From: Tepidiforma thermophila
GTDB taxonomy: Bacteria > Chloroflexota > Dehalococcoidia > Tepidiformales > Tepidiformaceae
DNA: 64,000 bases
Assembly: GCF_002563855.1 (NCBI RefSeq)
Contig: NZ_PDJQ01000001.1
Span: 806,001-870,000 of the forward strand
Direction: 5' to 3'
Shown here: positions 13,681 through 55,551 of the stretch, one piece after another
How positions within the stretch are numbered: the stretch's first letter is position 1
Layout of the letters: the number at the start of each line of letters is the position of its first letter
Notes under the pieces: generated by a model
Told to the model about the DNA's origin: nothing
What the model saw: the letters and a program-made list of their open reading frames with translations, nothing else
The model's database searches: none
Translations under genes and position numbers: made by a program

Positions 13681-13768
<88 letters not shown>

Positions 13769-38044: not shown

Positions 38045-38956
38045 CTAGGGTGCGTTCGTCGGCGTTGGCGCGGGGCTCGCAGCGCCCGTCGGCGAGGCCT
38101 CCGGCGTCGCGGTCGACCCCGCCTGCGCCGTCGCCGTCGCCAGCTGGGCCTGTACCTGCTGGAAGAGGCTCCGCCAAGCGTCCATGTTCGCCGGCGTCCC
38201 GGCCCCGAGCGGCTGCCCGTTCACCAGGAAGCCCGGCGTCCCCCGGATGCCGAACGAACTCGCGGTCCGCTGCTGCTCCGTAACCTCGTCCAGGTGCTCC
38301 GAGCTCTCGAGACACTGGTTGAACTTCTCCGTGTCCAGCCCCAGCTCGACCGCGTACTTCTTCAGGTTCTCATCCGAGAACCGCCCCACGTTCAGCTTTT
38401 CATCATCAATCTGGCCCGCCTCGGCCTGCACCAGGAAGAGCTTGTTGTGGTACTCCCAGAACTTGTTCTGGTCGGCCGCGCACATCCCCGCCAGCGCCGC
38501 CCGCACCGACTCCGGCCCGAGGATCGGCAGGTTCTGGTACTCCAGCTGCACGATGCCGGGCTTCACAAACTCCTCGATGATGTCGATCTCCTGCTCACCG
38601 GTGAACTTCAGGCAGAACGGGCACTGGAAATCCGCGTACACCGTCAGCTTCACCGGCGCATCGTCCTTGCCCAGCTTCATCCCGTTCGCGAGGTCCGTGG
38701 GCAGGTCGTTCGCCTTCTCCCGCAGCCGGCTCGCGATGTCGTCGCTCGACCCCCCGCCCGAAGTAGCCACCACCGCCACCAGGATCGCACCCAGCACGAC
38801 GATCACGGCCGCCACGATCAGCACAAACGGCCTCGTGAAAATCTCGCTTCCCCCGCCTCCCGTCCTGCGCGGCGGCGGTGCAGAGGCGCGCGGGGTGCGC
38901 TGCGGCCGCGTCCCCTGCGTCCGGCTCAGTTCGCGGCGTGCCTGGCGATTCGACAT
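38045..38956 (-). CDS. DsbA-family thiol oxidoreductase, membrane anchored
   Basis: 303 residues. Basic, disordered N-terminus, a membrane helix (~residues 43-66), then a thioredoxin fold with the active site CPFC in DFQCPFCLKF and the cis-Pro loop IRGTPGFLVN. The C-terminal tail is Thr/Pro/Ala-rich. It introduces or isomerises disulfides outside the membrane. Confidence 0.88.
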   Translation of the reverse strand: MSNRQARRELSRTQGTRPQRTPRASAPPPRRTGGGGSEIFTRPFVLIVAAVIVVLGAILVAVVATSGGGSSDDIASRLREKANDLPTDLANGMKLGKDDAPVKLTVYADFQCPFCLKFTGEQEIDIIEEFVKPGIVQLEYQNLPILGPESVRAALAGMCAADQNKFWEYHNKLFLVQAEAGQIDDEKLNVGRFSDENLKKYAVELGLDTEKFNQCLESSEHLDEVTEQQRTASSFGIRGTPGFLVNGQPLGAGTPANMDAWRSLFQQVQAQLATATAQAGSTATPEASPTGAASPAPTPTNAP

Positions 38957-39115
38957 CGGGCTCTTCCTGTTCGAAAAGGTGGAATCACACGGCGGGCCGA
39001 CGGGCAGCGCCTGCCCGCCGGCTCAGCCCCGAGATTACCACCCGCCCCGCTACGGGATACGGAAGCCCCGTTTACACAGCTCCCCTCGCCGCCCCACCTG
39101 CCTCCCCGCCCCCAG

Positions 39116-39265
39116 CTGGAAGCTTGGAGCTTGGAGCTTGAAGCCTGACCAAACAGGCACGCCCATCACGCTCCCTCCCGGCTCCCGGCTCCCAGCTCCC
39201 AGCTCCCGGCCCGCCTGCTCTCGCCCAGCCCCTCCCCCAGATTGGAGCTTGGAGGTTGGAGCTTG
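39116..39265. repeat. Flanking heptamer arrays (TTGGAGC and GCTCCCR types)
   Basis: Three short arrays precede the main one: TTGGAGC-type repeats at 39116-39144 and 39242-39265, and GCTCCCR-type at 39170-39209. The two types are variants of one heptamer read on opposite strands. They occupy the region between dsbA-like and the ABC permease gene; no gene lies here. Confidence 0.85.
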
Positions 39266-39290
39266 ACAGGCCGAACCCGCCCGCAACACC

Positions 39291-39655
39291 CGCTCCCCGC
39301 TCCCCGCTCCCCGCTCCCAGCTCCCAGCTCCCCGCTCCCACCTCCCGGCTCCCCGCTCACCGCTCCCAGCTCCCAGCTCCCGGCTCCCAGCTCCCAGCTC
39401 CCAGCTCCCAGCTCCCCGCTCCCCGCTCCCGGCTCCCGGCTCCCAGCTCCCGGCTCCCGGCTCCCGGCTCCCAGCTCCCAGCTCCCCGCTCCCAGCTCCC
39501 AGCTCCCGGCTCCCGGCTCCCAGCTCCCAGCTCCCAGCTCCCGGCTCCCGGCTCCCCGCTCCCGGCTCCCAGCTCCCAGCTCCCAGCTCCCAGCTCCCGG
39601 CTCCCGGCTCCCAGCTCCCAGCTCCCAGCTCCCAGCTCCCCGCTCACCGCTCCCC
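39291..39655. repeat. Heptamer minisatellite (GCTCCCR)n with G-quadruplex potential
   Basis: About fifty tandem copies of the 7-base unit GCTCCC followed by A, G or C, without interruption. On the minus strand this is GGGAGCT/GGGAGCC repeated: G3 tracts separated by 4-base loops, a textbook G-quadruplex pattern many times over. It begins inside the last codons of the ABC permease gene, whose stop is at 39644-39646. All frames are open only because of the period. Confidence 0.93.
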
Positions 39656-40558
39656 GAGGCCGCTGCCCCGCAGGCGCGGGTCCAGCTCGTCTCGGAGCGC
39701 ATCGCCCAGCAGGTTGAAGGCCAGCACCGTCAGGCTCAGCGCCAGCCCGGGGAAGACCGCCAGCCACCACGCCGTGTTGAAGTACGCCCGCGCCTGCGGC
39801 CCCAGGTCGTTCCCCCACGATGGCTCGCCCAGTGGCAGCCCCACGCCAAGGAACGTCAGCGCCGACTCCGCAAGGATCGCCGCCGGCAGCGTCGTGCTCG
39901 CCACCACAATCACCAGCGGCCCAATATTCGGCAGGATGTGCCGGAACATCAGCCGCGCCTCCGAGCAGCCGATGACGCGCGCTGCCTCCACGTACATCCG
40001 CTGCCGCTCGACCAGCACGCCCCCGCGGATGATCCGCATGATCACCGGCGTGAAGATGATGCTGATCGCGATAATGACCGACCGCAGCCCCGGCCCCAGC
40101 CACGTCGCCACCACCAGCCCGAACAGGATCGCCGGGAACGAGAGCAGCACCTCCGCCAGCCGGCTGATCAGCGTGTCGACAAACCCGCCGAGGTAGCCCG
40201 CCAGCAGCCCCAGCACCGTCCCGCCCACCACGCTGATCAGCACCGTCGCAATCCCCACCATCAGCGACGGGCGCGCCCCGTACACCACCCGCGAGTACAG
40301 GTCCTGCCCGTTCCGGTTCGTCCCGAACCAGTGGTCCGCGCTCGGGCCCACCAGGATGTCCGAGCCGAACTCCTTCGGGTCCGTCGTCCGCATGAACGGC
40401 GCATCCGCGAAGACCGCCATCAGCACCAGCCCGGCGATCACCAGCGCCGAGGCCGTCCCCAGCGGCTGCCGCCGCGCGAACCGGCGCAGCCGCCCCAAAC
40501 CGAAATCGATGCGCCGTCCCGGGATTGCGAGCACGCCTGCCTGCGCTTCGGTGGCCAT
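39644..40558 (-). CDS. Dipeptide/oligopeptide ABC transporter permease (DppC type)
   Basis: 304 residues with an N-terminal cytoplasmic arm, one helix and the five-helix permease core; the EAA loop contains [11 protein letters not shown]. Its final residues GLGER and stop lie in the first repeat units of the heptamer array. Forms the channel with the upstream permease. No ABC ATPase gene follows. Confidence 0.88.
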
Positions 40559-40579: not shown

Positions 40580-41527
40580 TTACACCCGCAGCCGCGGGTC
40601 GGCCCACGCGTACAGCACGTCGACGATCAGCGTGACCATCAGGAACGAGGCCGCAATCGTCACCGTCACCGCCTGGATCGTCTGGTGGTCCCGGTCGGCC
40701 ACCGCTTTCGCCGCCATCGACCCCATCCCCGGGATGCCGAACAGCTGCTCAATCACAATCGAACCGCCGAGGATCAGCCCGAACTGCAGCCCCAGCACCG
40801 TCAGCAGCGTCAGCACCGAGTTCCGGAACACGTGCACCCAGACGACGCTCTGCTCCTTCAATCCCTTCGCACGCGCCGTCCGCACATAATCCGCGTAGAG
40901 CGCCTCGATCATGCTCGAGCGCACGATCCGCGCCACGTAGGCCGAGGCCCCGATCGCCAGCACCAGCGCCGGCAGGACCAGCAGGGCGAAGTGCGTCACC
41001 GGGTCCTCCGTCAATCCCCGCCACTGCTTCACGGGTGTCCAGCCCCACCAGTAGGCCGGCAGGTAGATCACCAGCGTCCCCAGCCAGAAGTTCGGCACCG
41101 AAAGCCCAAGGATCGAGAAGAACCGCGCCGTATAGTCGCCCACGGAGTGCGCCCGCACCGCCGAGAGCGCCCCGATCGGCACGCCGATCGCCAGCGTGAA
41201 GAAGACCGTCACCAGCCCAAGCTGGAGCGTCGTGAAGAAGCGGTCGCGCAGCTCCGGCGTGATCTCCCGGCGCGTCGCCGTGGAAAGCCCGAAATCGCCG
41301 CGGAGCGCATTCCCCAGCCAGAGCAGGTACTGCTCCGGCTTCGACTTATCCAGCCCGAGCTCCTTCTTCACAACGGCGATGCACTCTTCGCACGCCGAAC
41401 CCGAAGCGCCCAGCCGGATCGTCGCCGCATCAGCCGGCAGCGCCCGGATGAGCGTAAACGAAAGGATCGAGACGCCCAGCAGCGTCACCGGAAAGAGCGC
41501 CAGCCGCCGCAGGATGTACGTCCGCAT
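40580..41527 (-). CDS. Dipeptide/oligopeptide ABC transporter permease (DppB type)
   Basis: 315 residues, opening MRTYILRRLALFPVTLLGVS, characteristic of DppB/GsiC. Six helices and the EAA motif YVRTARAKGLKE. It is the second half of the membrane channel, 21 bases ahead of the DppC-type gene. Confidence 0.9.
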   Translation of the reverse strand: MRTYILRRLALFPVTLLGVSILSFTLIRALPADAATIRLGASGSACEECIAVVKKELGLDKSKPEQYLLWLGNALRGDFGLSTATRREITPELRDRFFTTLQLGLVTVFFTLAIGVPIGALSAVRAHSVGDYTARFFSILGLSVPNFWLGTLVIYLPAYWWGWTPVKQWRGLTEDPVTHFALLVLPALVLAIGASAYVARIVRSSMIEALYADYVRTARAKGLKEQSVVWVHVFRNSVLTLLTVLGLQFGLILGGSIVIEQLFGIPGMGSMAAKAVADRDHQTIQAVTVTIAASFLMVTLIVDVLYAWADPRLRV

Positions 41528-41596: not shown

Positions 41597-43393
41597 TCAG
41601 GCGTCCAGCCAGATGTCCTGGACGCGGAAGAACCCGGTGCCCGCGTTCGCGTACATGAAGTCCTTCTCCGGGTAGTTCTTCACCCGGTCGCGGAAGGCCG
41701 CGTAGGCGAACTCCGGCACCGGCAGCGGAATGGCCGGCCCGTACTCCTGGTGGATCACCCGCACGATCTCCTGCACCTTCTGCTTCCGCGCCTCGGGGTT
41801 CAGCTCCTGCGCCTGCGCGTTCCAGAGCTGCTGCATCCGCCCGGCGAACGCCGCCGTATCCGACTTCGGCGAATCCGGCCGCAGGTTCCCGAAGATCGCC
41901 CCGTAGCCCACCGGCACGTAGTGCGCCAGCGCGTTGTAGTCCGGGATCGTCTGGAGCGAAAGCTCCCACGCGATGAACAGGTCCCACGGCTTCGGCGCCT
42001 TCTCCGCGAAGCCGGCCACCGCCCGCGCCACGTAGGTCGCCGGGTCCACCACCTCCACCTCGACCTTCACGCCGAGGTTCTGCTCCAGCTGCTTCTTCAC
42101 GAACTCCGTCGCCGTCGCGAAGATCGGGATCGCCTGCATCGTCACCATCTTGATCGTCGGGAACGTCTGCGACCCGCCGGCCTCCTGCCACAGCTTCTTG
42201 GCATCGCCCGGGTTGAATGCCTGGAGCTTCTTCAGCTCCTCCTGCGAAAGCCCGTACCCCTCCTTCGCGAACTCCGAGGCCGTCGGCCCGCCGTACAGCC
42301 CCTCGCCCAGGTACAGGTTCTTGATGAAGGCATCCCGGTCGATCGCCATCCAGACCGCCTGCCGCAGCCGCTTGTCCGTCCACTTGAAGTTGTCGAACTG
42401 CATAACCAGGTGGCCATTGGCCGGGCCCTTCACCACCTTGATCCCCTTCTCCCGCCCCAGCTCGTCCGCCACCAGCCGGTCGATGTTCACGACCGTCAGC
42501 ACGTCCAGCTCGCCGGCAAGGAACTTCGCCTTGATCGTCGCCGGGTCCGGGATGATCGACTCCTCCCACGCGTCGATGTACGGCCCTTCCTTCACGTAGG
42601 TCGGCGAGGGCGGGTCATGCTGGAAATAGTTCGGGTTCCGCTCGTACCGCGTACCGGTCGGCTCCCGCTTCACCATCCGGTACGGCCCGCTCCCCGCGTT
42701 CATCACCTTCATCAGGTCGCCGCCGTTCGCCTCCACCACCTCCTTCGCCACCACCGCAAACGCGCTCGAACCGAGCGCAATCACGTTCGAGGCGAATGGG
42801 TTCTTCTGCTTGATGACGACGGTGTACTTGTCCGGCGTCTCAATCTTGTCGATCCAGCCCCACTGGATCTGGTTCACCTGCGAGCCCTTCGTCAGCGCCA
42901 CCGGGAAGCGGGTGTACGAGTAGGCCACATCCTCCGCCGTCAGCTCCCGCCCGTTCGCCACATCGGGCTGGAATGTCACCCCCTGGCGCAGCTTCACCCG
43001 CAGCGTCAGCGGGTCCACCTGCTCATGCTCGACCGCCAGGTCGTAGCACACCGTCTTCGTCGAGACCTGGTACGTCCACAGGTGCGAATACGCCTTCGCC
43101 GGGTGGATCGGGTTCGTGACCACGATGTGCGGGTCGAGCCCCGTGTCCGGCGAGGCCTTGGCGATCCGCATCGTCCCGCCGCGCTTGCCCGCCGGCGCCG
43201 GCGTCGGGCTCCCCGCCGGCTGCGTCGCCCCCCCGGAAGGCGCCGTAGCAGTTGCGCCGCCCTCGTCGTCATCGTCGTCGCCGCAGCCGACGCTCAGGCC
43301 GGCCGCCCCGAGGGCCGCCACCCCGGTCCCTGCCAGGAAGGCACGCCGCCGGATGCGGGCGCGCCAGTAGCGGCTCCAGTAGGTCGATTCCAT
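41597..43393 (-). CDS. Extracellular solute-binding lipoprotein, family 5 (peptide/nickel type)
   Basis: 598 residues from ATG at 43393 with SD GGGAGGG; an upstream in-frame start at 43438 would lie outside the SD. A Tat-type signal (RRRAFLAGTG) ends in a lipobox LSVGC, followed by an Asp-rich and Thr/Pro linker. The family-5 fold follows (TLRVKLRQGVTFQPD and AVWMAIDRDAFI motifs). Binds the imported solute; its promoter carries the island's shared 16-bp motif, so the solute may be the island's substrate. Confidence 0.9.
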   Translation of the reverse strand: MESTYWSRYWRARIRRRAFLAGTGVAALGAAGLSVGCGDDDDDEGGATATAPSGGATQPAGSPTPAPAGKRGGTMRIAKASPDTGLDPHIVVTNPIHPAKAYSHLWTYQVSTKTVCYDLAVEHEQVDPLTLRVKLRQGVTFQPDVANGRELTAEDVAYSYTRFPVALTKGSQVNQIQWGWIDKIETPDKYTVVIKQKNPFASNVIALGSSAFAVVAKEVVEANGGDLMKVMNAGSGPYRMVKREPTGTRYERNPNYFQHDPPSPTYVKEGPYIDAWEESIIPDPATIKAKFLAGELDVLTVVNIDRLVADELGREKGIKVVKGPANGHLVMQFDNFKWTDKRLRQAVWMAIDRDAFIKNLYLGEGLYGGPTASEFAKEGYGLSQEELKKLQAFNPGDAKKLWQEAGGSQTFPTIKMVTMQAIPIFATATEFVKKQLEQNLGVKVEVEVVDPATYVARAVAGFAEKAPKPWDLFIAWELSLQTIPDYNALAHYVPVGYGAIFGNLRPDSPKSDTAAFAGRMQQLWNAQAQELNPEARKQKVQEIVRVIHQEYGPAIPLPVPEFAYAAFRDRVKNYPEKDFMYANAGTGFFRVQDIWLDA

Positions 43394-43442
43394 CGCAGTC
43401 CCTCCCCTGTTGGTCGCCCGGAAAACGCTTCGGTCCAAAACT

Positions 43443-54171: not shown

Positions 54172-55551
54172 AGTCCTGGTTCCCAAGCTGGGCATGACCA
54201 TGACCGAAGGCACCGTCGCCGAATGGCTGGTGCCCGACGGCGCCCCCGTCCGCGCCGGCGACATCGTCTACCGTCTCGAGACCGAGAAGATCGAATTCCA
54301 GGTCGAAGCCGAGGCCGACGGCATCCTCCGCCACGCCGTCCCGGCCGGCACGACCCTCCCGCCCGGTTCCGTCGTCGGCTACATCCTCGCCCCCGGCGAG
54401 GCCCCGCCCGCCGGCGCCCCGCTCCCGCCGCCCCTGCCGCCGCCGCAGCCGCGCCGGGCGTCCCCGCTCCGCCGCCCCCGCCGCCCGCGCCCGGGCACGT
54501 AGCTGCCTCCCCGGCCGCCCGCCGCCTCGCCGCCGAACTCGGCGTCCCGCTCGAAACCGTCCTCGGCACCGGCCCCGGCGGCCGCATCACCGAGGAGGAC
54601 GTGCACCGCGCCCACGCCGCCGCAGCCCGCCCGGCCGCTCCCGCGGCTGCCCCGTCCCCTGCCCCGGCCGAACCGTCGCCCGCGACGCCCGTCGCCCGCG
54701 CCCTCGCCCGCGAGCTCGGCATCGACCTCGCCGCCGTCCGCGGCACCGGCCCCGGCGGCCGTATCACCAAAGAGGACGTCGAAGCTGCCGCAGCTGCCCG
54801 CCCGGCCGCCCCGCCGCCTTCGGCGCCCCCGGTCCCGGCCCCTGCTGCTGCGGCGCCCGCCCCCGGCCAGCGCATCCCCCTCCGCGGCATGCGCAAAACC
54901 ATCGCCGAGCGCATGCACCGCAGCCTCCAGGAGACGGCCCAGCTCACCCTCGGCATGCGCGTCCGCATGGACGAGGCCCTCCGCCTCCGCGAGCAGCTCA
55001 TCGCCGAGTGGCAGCCCGAGGGCATCCGCCCCTCCATCACCGACCTGGTCATCCGCGCCGTCGCCCGCGCCCTCCGCCAGCACCCCGCCCTCAACGCCCG
55101 CGTCGAACCCGACGCCATCGTCCTCGAGCCGGAGGTCCACATCGGCATGGCCGTCGCCCTCGAGGCCGGCCTTGTCGTCCCGGTCATCCGCAACGCCGAC
55201 ACCCTCCACCTCCGCGATCTCGCCCGCGAAACCGCCCGTCTCGCCGAGGCCGCCCGCGCCGGGACCCTCGGCCTCGATGACTACGCCGGCCAGACCTTCT
55301 CCGTCACCTCCCTCGGCATGGCCGGCGTCGAATTCTTCACCCCAATCATCAACCCGCCCAACGTCGCCATCCTCGGCGTAGGACAACTCGTCGACGACAT
55401 TCGCTGGGACGGCGACCGCCCCGTCCGCGCCCGGACCCTCACCCTTTCGCTCACCATCGACCACCGCGCGGTCGATGGCGCCCCCGGGGCCGCCTTCCTC
55501 GGCACCGTCCGCGACCTCCTCGAAGCCCCCTACCGGCTCCTGCTGCCATGA
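54161..55551 (+). pseudogene. Dihydrolipoamide acyltransferase (E2), frame-shifted
   Basis: Two frames make one E2. ATG at 54161 opens a lipoyl domain with Lys43 in ETEKIEF; that frame ends at a TAG near 54502. The rest continues one base back (-1) from ~54395-54480, within a Pro/Ala linker, and contains two tandem E3/E1-binding domains ([18 protein letters not shown] and [19 protein letters not shown]) and the catalytic core with [13 protein letters not shown]. Family members have all these in one frame, so this is a one-base deletion, sequencing error or slippage; the C-rich linker would favour error. It carries the acyl group from E1 to CoA. Confidence 0.85.

Follow-up and report, generated by a model that had tools for sequence, protein, structure and literature searches.

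Quadruplex-forming heptamer repeats were described by Rehm et al. (2015) as GGGNATC units in Xanthomonas and GGGGA(C/T)T units in Nostoc, spread genome-wide with no preference for the origin, the terminus, or the leading or lagging strand (PMC4692102). Among eukaryotic repeats, the yeast minisatellites CEB1 and CEB25 are G-rich and their behaviour is set by the template strand that carries the G tracts (PMC7063842, PMC3486850); with Pif1 deleted, a G-quadruplex minisatellite is unstable when its G-rich strand is the leading template, at 53% versus 4% (PMC7063842). The human PLEKHG3 repeats, d(GGGAGCGAGGGAGCG), form by NMR a tetrahelix without G-quartets (PMC4275592), the core of which requires AGCGA (PMC5442326). 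Finally, the TAACTGA heptamer direct repeats of Beggiatoaceae are intergenic repeats of a bacterial group, with a unit that is not G-rich (PMC4679880).

The array analysed here resembles the Rehm-type repeats as a tandem heptamer with G3 tracts (52 GGGAGCN units), and the family to which it belongs is likewise intergenic, variable in copy number, often located beside stop or start codons and occasionally accompanied by inverted neighbours. The Tepidiforma arrays differ from those repeats in that they are centred on the replication origin, are almost fully polar, use another unit and sit inside a compound element. Origin clustering and strand polarity set them apart from known bacterial G-quadruplex-type heptamer repeats.

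The window, a stretch of 64,000 nucleotides, covers positions 806001–870000 of the single 2,743,337-bp contig of Tepidiforma thermophila (genome G000); the features of the locus are collected in Table 1. TRF reports a period of 7 at 39292–39654, with 51.9 copies and 91% matches, and again, with 5.1 copies, at 39175–39210. Parsed in register from 39292, the 52 units comprise 25 GCTCCCA, 13 GCTCCCG, 11 GCTCCCC, 2 GCTCACC and 1 CCTCCCG. Dinucleotide shuffles predict 0.01 matches to a three-unit pattern, of which 52 were observed. The preliminary description, made from the letters of this stretch, had recognised about fifty GCTCCCR units; the heptamer array is real, whereas the last letter of the unit is N (A, G or C) and not R, because GCTCCCC units occur beside GCTCCCA and GCTCCCG. 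It had also taken 39116–39655 as one array, an interval that in fact contains the five-unit block and two module copies as well. Its remaining observations on the locus agree with the coordinates: the array begins inside the 3'-terminal codons of the DppC-type gene, it lies between the transporter operon and the dsbA-like gene, and the minus strand, which is the sense strand of the operon, carries G3 tracts with 4-base loops and matches the G4 consensus. On this strand, 60 of the 115 consensus starts in the window fall in the array.

Table 1. Repeat elements and neighbouring genes at the array locus (window coordinates)
Feature	Position	Strand	Description	Basis
Main heptamer array	39292..39655	-	52 units, GGGAGC(T/C/G) on minus strand	TRF, unit parsing, chance test
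Second short array	39175..39210	-	about 5 units, orientation as main array	TRF, unit parsing, chance test
Downstream module 'D', copy 1 (GGTGTTGCGGGCGGGTTCGGCCTGTCAAGCTCCAACCTCCAAGCTCC...)	39234..39290	-		flank comparison, nhmmer census
Downstream module, copy 2, second subtype (GCGTGATGGGCGTGCCTGTTTGGTCAGGCTTCAAGCTCCAAGCTCC...)	39110..39173	-		flank comparison, nhmmer census
DppC-type ABC permease (PF00528)	39644..40558	-	last codons inside array	
DsbA/thioredoxin-like protein (PF13462, PF01323)	38045..38956	-	next gene downstream of array	
DppB-type permease	40580..41527	-	same operon as DppC-type gene	
Family 5 substrate-binding protein (PF00496)	41597..43438	-	same operon as DppC-type gene	

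Together the array and its modules take up most of the gap between the DppC-type and DsbA-like genes and overlap the permease stop codon. Both downstream modules, copies of one shared element of 55–60 bp, carry inverted TTGGAGC-type heptamers, which in copy 2 read as GGAGCTT on the plus strand, and relatives of copy 1 stand beside arrays elsewhere in the genome in unchanged orientation. TTGGAGC arrays taken by themselves look unpolarised, but some of them are inverted heptamers that belong to the downstream module. Elsewhere in the window, TRF detects C-rich tandem repetition with a period of 15/30 at 54401–54492, unrelated to the heptamer.

The array belongs to a family of compound minisatellites that is specific to the genus and occupies intergenic sites. 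A search for further arrays, which the preliminary description had proposed, was productive: whole-chromosome pattern searches find GGGAGC arrays at 18 loci of the same chromosome, with 3 to 65 units. Flank comparison gives the order of the compound element as upstream units, heptamer array and downstream module. The upstream unit, often present, contains GGGAGGAGGGAG-CCCCGCC and is tandem at 47–56 bp; the downstream module begins GAGTGTG...TTCGGCCTGTCAAGCTCCAAGCTCC and holds the inverted heptamers. The window locus consists of the array and two downstream modules, without the upstream unit. At three loci (L034, L035 and L046) the upstream unit, GGGAGGAGGGAGCCCCGCC..., forms a minisatellite of its own, with a period of 47–56 bp and up to seven consecutive copies.

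Among 40 relatives searched, dense arrays are confined to the genus, with one genome of the same family showing two overlapping matches; two of the five related genomes, G002 and G005, have almost none. A search of the complete prokaryote collection for similar stretches of 28 bp gave, among the matches listed, scattered occurrences in many phyla. Our census of 73 arrays comes from the three single-contig genomes of the genus, G000, G001 and G004, and is incomplete for G001 and G004. All but two of the 73 lie outside called ORFs, as judged with a simple home-made finder. The variable unit letter is a property of the genome: T, G or C here, G or A in G004, and T or C in G001, with T in 132 of 344 units here versus 5 of 299 in G004, and A in 7 versus 108. 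This genome specificity argues for homogenisation within each genome. Some orthologous sites are shared between species and others are empty, with copy numbers from 0 to 65. The concern that the array might be an assembly artefact is unlikely to be justified, because independently assembled genomes of related species also contain arrays, in part at orthologous sites.

The dppC–dsbA neighbourhood is kept in four other genomes. In G004, the nearest species, the permease is 97% identical and 15 units follow directly behind the stop codon (this array escaped the anchored pattern and stands outside the 73), whereas no array lies between dppC and dsbA in G001, G002 or G003, where a common GTAAA...CTTCCGTATCCCGTA sequence starts within about 10 bases of the dppC stop. 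Copy number across the five species is thus 52+5, 15, 0, 0 and 0, bearing out the suspected variation in length. Because three species keep the gene pair without it, the array is dispensable at this site, and its length differs between species.

The same comparison bears on the role first proposed for the array, an RNA quadruplex element that would terminate, insulate or stabilise transcripts of the transporter operon. The window locus itself is compatible with such a role: its G-rich strand is RNA-like, the array begins at a stop codon, and an energy model predicts a stable RNA quadruplex or hairpin. An Rfam search of the window found no RNA family at the array, only a tRNA at 13681–13765, and a search for intrinsic terminators returned one weak site, a 5-pair hairpin at 39171–39157 in the second module. 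A role as insulator, terminator or stability element of this operon is not supported, given that the two genes are neighbours with only 15 units between them in the nearest species and with no array in three others. Across the family, array orientation is independent of gene direction: of the 73 arrays, 28 lie between divergent genes, 17 between convergent genes, 26 between genes of the same direction and 2 inside called ORFs. Same-direction pairs comprise 14 arrays in which the C-rich strand is RNA-like versus 12 in which the G-rich strand is, so that the arrangement seen in the window is the smallest intergenic class. With no trend in gene direction and with empty orthologous sites, an operon-specific RNA quadruplex loses its main support, and we regard it as very unlikely. 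An RNA-level function is not needed to account for the pattern of the arrays, which seem to be shaped by replication and not by the transporter operon next to this one.

What the G-rich strand folds into would depend on the unit. As RNA, the GGGAGCU repeat gives a near tie between AGCU hairpins (−20.2 kcal/mol) and a quadruplex (−21.1 kcal/mol), whereas quadruplexes are clearly favoured for GGGAGCG in the RNA energy model; as DNA, the GGGAGCT unit contains the palindrome AGCT. The PLEKHG3 units contain GGGAGCG, which is also frequent among the units of the present genome and is the most abundant variant in G004. Those repeats are octamers with AGCGA cores (PMC4275592, PMC5442326), whereas the Tepidiforma heptamers read AGCGG, AGCTG or AGCCG and lack AGCGA. 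Because quartet-free relatives exist and yet the arrays lack their AGCGA core, neither a G-quadruplex nor the AGCGA fold is to be assumed; G-quadruplex formation by the arrays is plausible but uncertain.

Relating the arrays to replication requires the position of the origin, and several lines of evidence agree on it. First, three parS-like sites lie at 568.7–569.3 kb of the G000 chromosome. Second, beside them stand yidC (PF02096), then jag, parA and parB, the last three recognised from their translated sequences. Third, each of the three complete genomes has one 16S gene, which runs with the replication forks only if they start at the parS point. Fourth, with the origin set at parS, the leading strand holds 58–61% of coding bases. 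Given this agreement, we conclude that the parS/yidC–jag–parAB region is the replication origin. The surroundings of parS showed no cluster of DnaA boxes, and a search for a dif-like site gave nothing convincing in the DNA stretches searched. The best DnaA match, at L191 (G000:C1:940545-941015), lies about 370 kb from the parS/yidC–jag–parAB cluster. Under the usual rule of a G-rich leading strand the skew switch at about 0.53 Mb would be the terminus, which would suggest a KOPS-like reading; this assignment is ruled out by parS, the 16S strand, yidC–jag–parAB and the strand bias of genes.

With the origin so placed, GC skew turns from plus to minus at the origin and the leading strand is C-rich, the inverse of the usual rule. 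In G000, G001 and G004 its magnitude is 0.20–0.26 at mid-replichore and declines gradually to zero at origin and terminus. It is −0.206 in the window, and leading-strand genes have a GC3 skew of about −0.45 to −0.50. A typical GC skew in SkewDB is about 2.5% (PMC8941118), and our literature search found no report joining inverted GC skew with Chloroflexi.

Both the location and the strand of the arrays follow this origin. On the G000 chromosome GGGAGC is on the plus strand in every array at 71–467 kb and on the minus strand in every array at 576–1086 kb, and the same pattern surrounds the parS clusters of G004 and G001. Over the three genomes, the G-rich strand is the leading-strand template in 71 of 73 arrays, and the same number are found no further than about 510 kb from the origin, unlike the Rehm-type repeats with their indifference to origin and strand. 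When orthologous sites are collapsed, 34 of 34 groups are polar. The word of the upstream unit occurs 58 times genome-wide, always at 118–1086 kb and in the expected orientation in 57 cases (the sole exception is at 685.7 kb), switching strand between 561.0 and 576.8 kb; in G004 this unit is less polar (21 of 28). Polarity is kept even where a locus has changed replichore: sites at −497, −409, −394 and +364 kb from the origin here lie at +433, +342, +324 and −371 kb in G004. That several orthologous loci changed arm and strand together, at similar distances from the origin, suggests repeated origin-symmetric inversions.

Only two of the 73 arrays are reversed. In L228 (G001:C1:773117-773603), 8 GGGAGCA units face 18 GGGAGCT units 300 bp away, and the two blocks thus differ in their unit letter. 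L214 (G004:C1:1450163-1450189) has 4 units and lies within a cluster of five correctly oriented arrays.

How much of this polarity could composition alone produce? A strong inverted skew would make G-rich heptamers one-stranded, and their duplicates would then be polar with neither orientation-dependent stability nor function. The magnitude of the skew, including that at third codon positions, favours this account, as do single GGGAGC words outside arrays near the origin, 80–82% of which are on the same strand; for composition-matched hexamers the figure is 73–80%. Since single words already reach 82%, the excess in the arrays is only moderate, and polarity is mostly as expected from strand bias. 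The arrays are nevertheless 97% polar, and 34 polar groups out of 34 have a P of 0.0014 to 2e-5 against the composition backgrounds, according to the null used. Skew also fails to explain why the arrays cluster near the origin (P about 3e-28 under a uniform model with arrays taken as independent), because it is equally strong at distances of 600–800 kb, at which hardly any arrays occur. We therefore consider composition as the sole cause unlikely, though a serious candidate.

A second alternative is that the arrays are a selected polar signal around the origin, KOPS- or parS-like, serving domain organisation, fork pacing or arm alignment. The sharp strand switch at parS, the symmetry between the two arms seen in three species, the retention of polarity through moves between arms and a 65-unit array that starts about 1.4 kb past the end of parB would all fit a signal of this kind. 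Its sites, however, vary among species, the number of units ranges from 0 to 65 with some orthologous sites empty, G002 and G005 manage almost without arrays, and no recognition protein is known, so that we hold such a signal to be improbable. A specific version, in which the arrays would mark the origin-proximal third, with structures on the leading template pacing or marking early forks or aligning the arms from parS through a putative helicase, SMC or translocase, strikes us as quite improbable. KOPS occur singly, as octamers dispersed along the leading strand that point to the terminus and are enriched near dif. The arrays share with KOPS and AIMS a short G-rich word that is strand-polar relative to replication; unlike KOPS, they form tandem runs that cluster at the origin and, on the lagging-sense strand, point to it, and membership in that class is rejected by reading direction and location.

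Strict polarity and shared modules at dispersed sites could also point to a mobile family of REP/IS200 type that prefers one strand when it inserts into the single-stranded DNA of a replication fork. The corresponding Y1 transposase (PF01797) is absent from all six genus genomes and was detected in control genomes, and the empty dppC–dsbA site shows neither constant ends nor a target duplication; this origin of the family is extremely unlikely. In the absence of a dedicated Y1 (HUH) transposase, membership in REP/BIME or IS200-type elements was rejected.

On balance we lean towards a minisatellite shaped by replication, which would expand locally, be homogenised within the genome and survive in one fork orientation. 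Arrays would lengthen and shorten through slippage or unequal recombination during replication, and recombination would homogenise them inside a genome. In the surviving orientation, the G-rich, structure-prone strand would be copied by the leading-strand polymerase and kept off the lagging-strand template, and the extreme strand composition bias of the genus may seed that same orientation. The bacterial DnaB helicase travels on the lagging-strand template, and structures on the leading-strand template would therefore lie outside its path. Yeast CEB1 shows that G-rich minisatellites are sensitive to fork orientation (PMC7063842). That precedent concerns instability in one orientation, not preferential survival, in an engineered eukaryotic system with a replisome that differs from the bacterial one; polarity of natural origin belongs to the Tepidiforma arrays. 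Against the replication-shaped reading stands a polarity only modestly above the single-word background (P about 1e-3, 34 groups), and the mechanism alone leaves the avoidance of the outer 60% of the chromosome unexplained.

For the reading of such repeats, this family carries a warning, as the view from a single locus can mislead toward an operon-specific RNA element. Set against earlier reports of repeats indifferent to replication, three related species here present dozens of natural arrays ordered by the direction of the fork and by how far they lie from the origin. They offer a natural setting in which to study the influence of fork polarity on how structure-forming repeats arise, persist and disappear.
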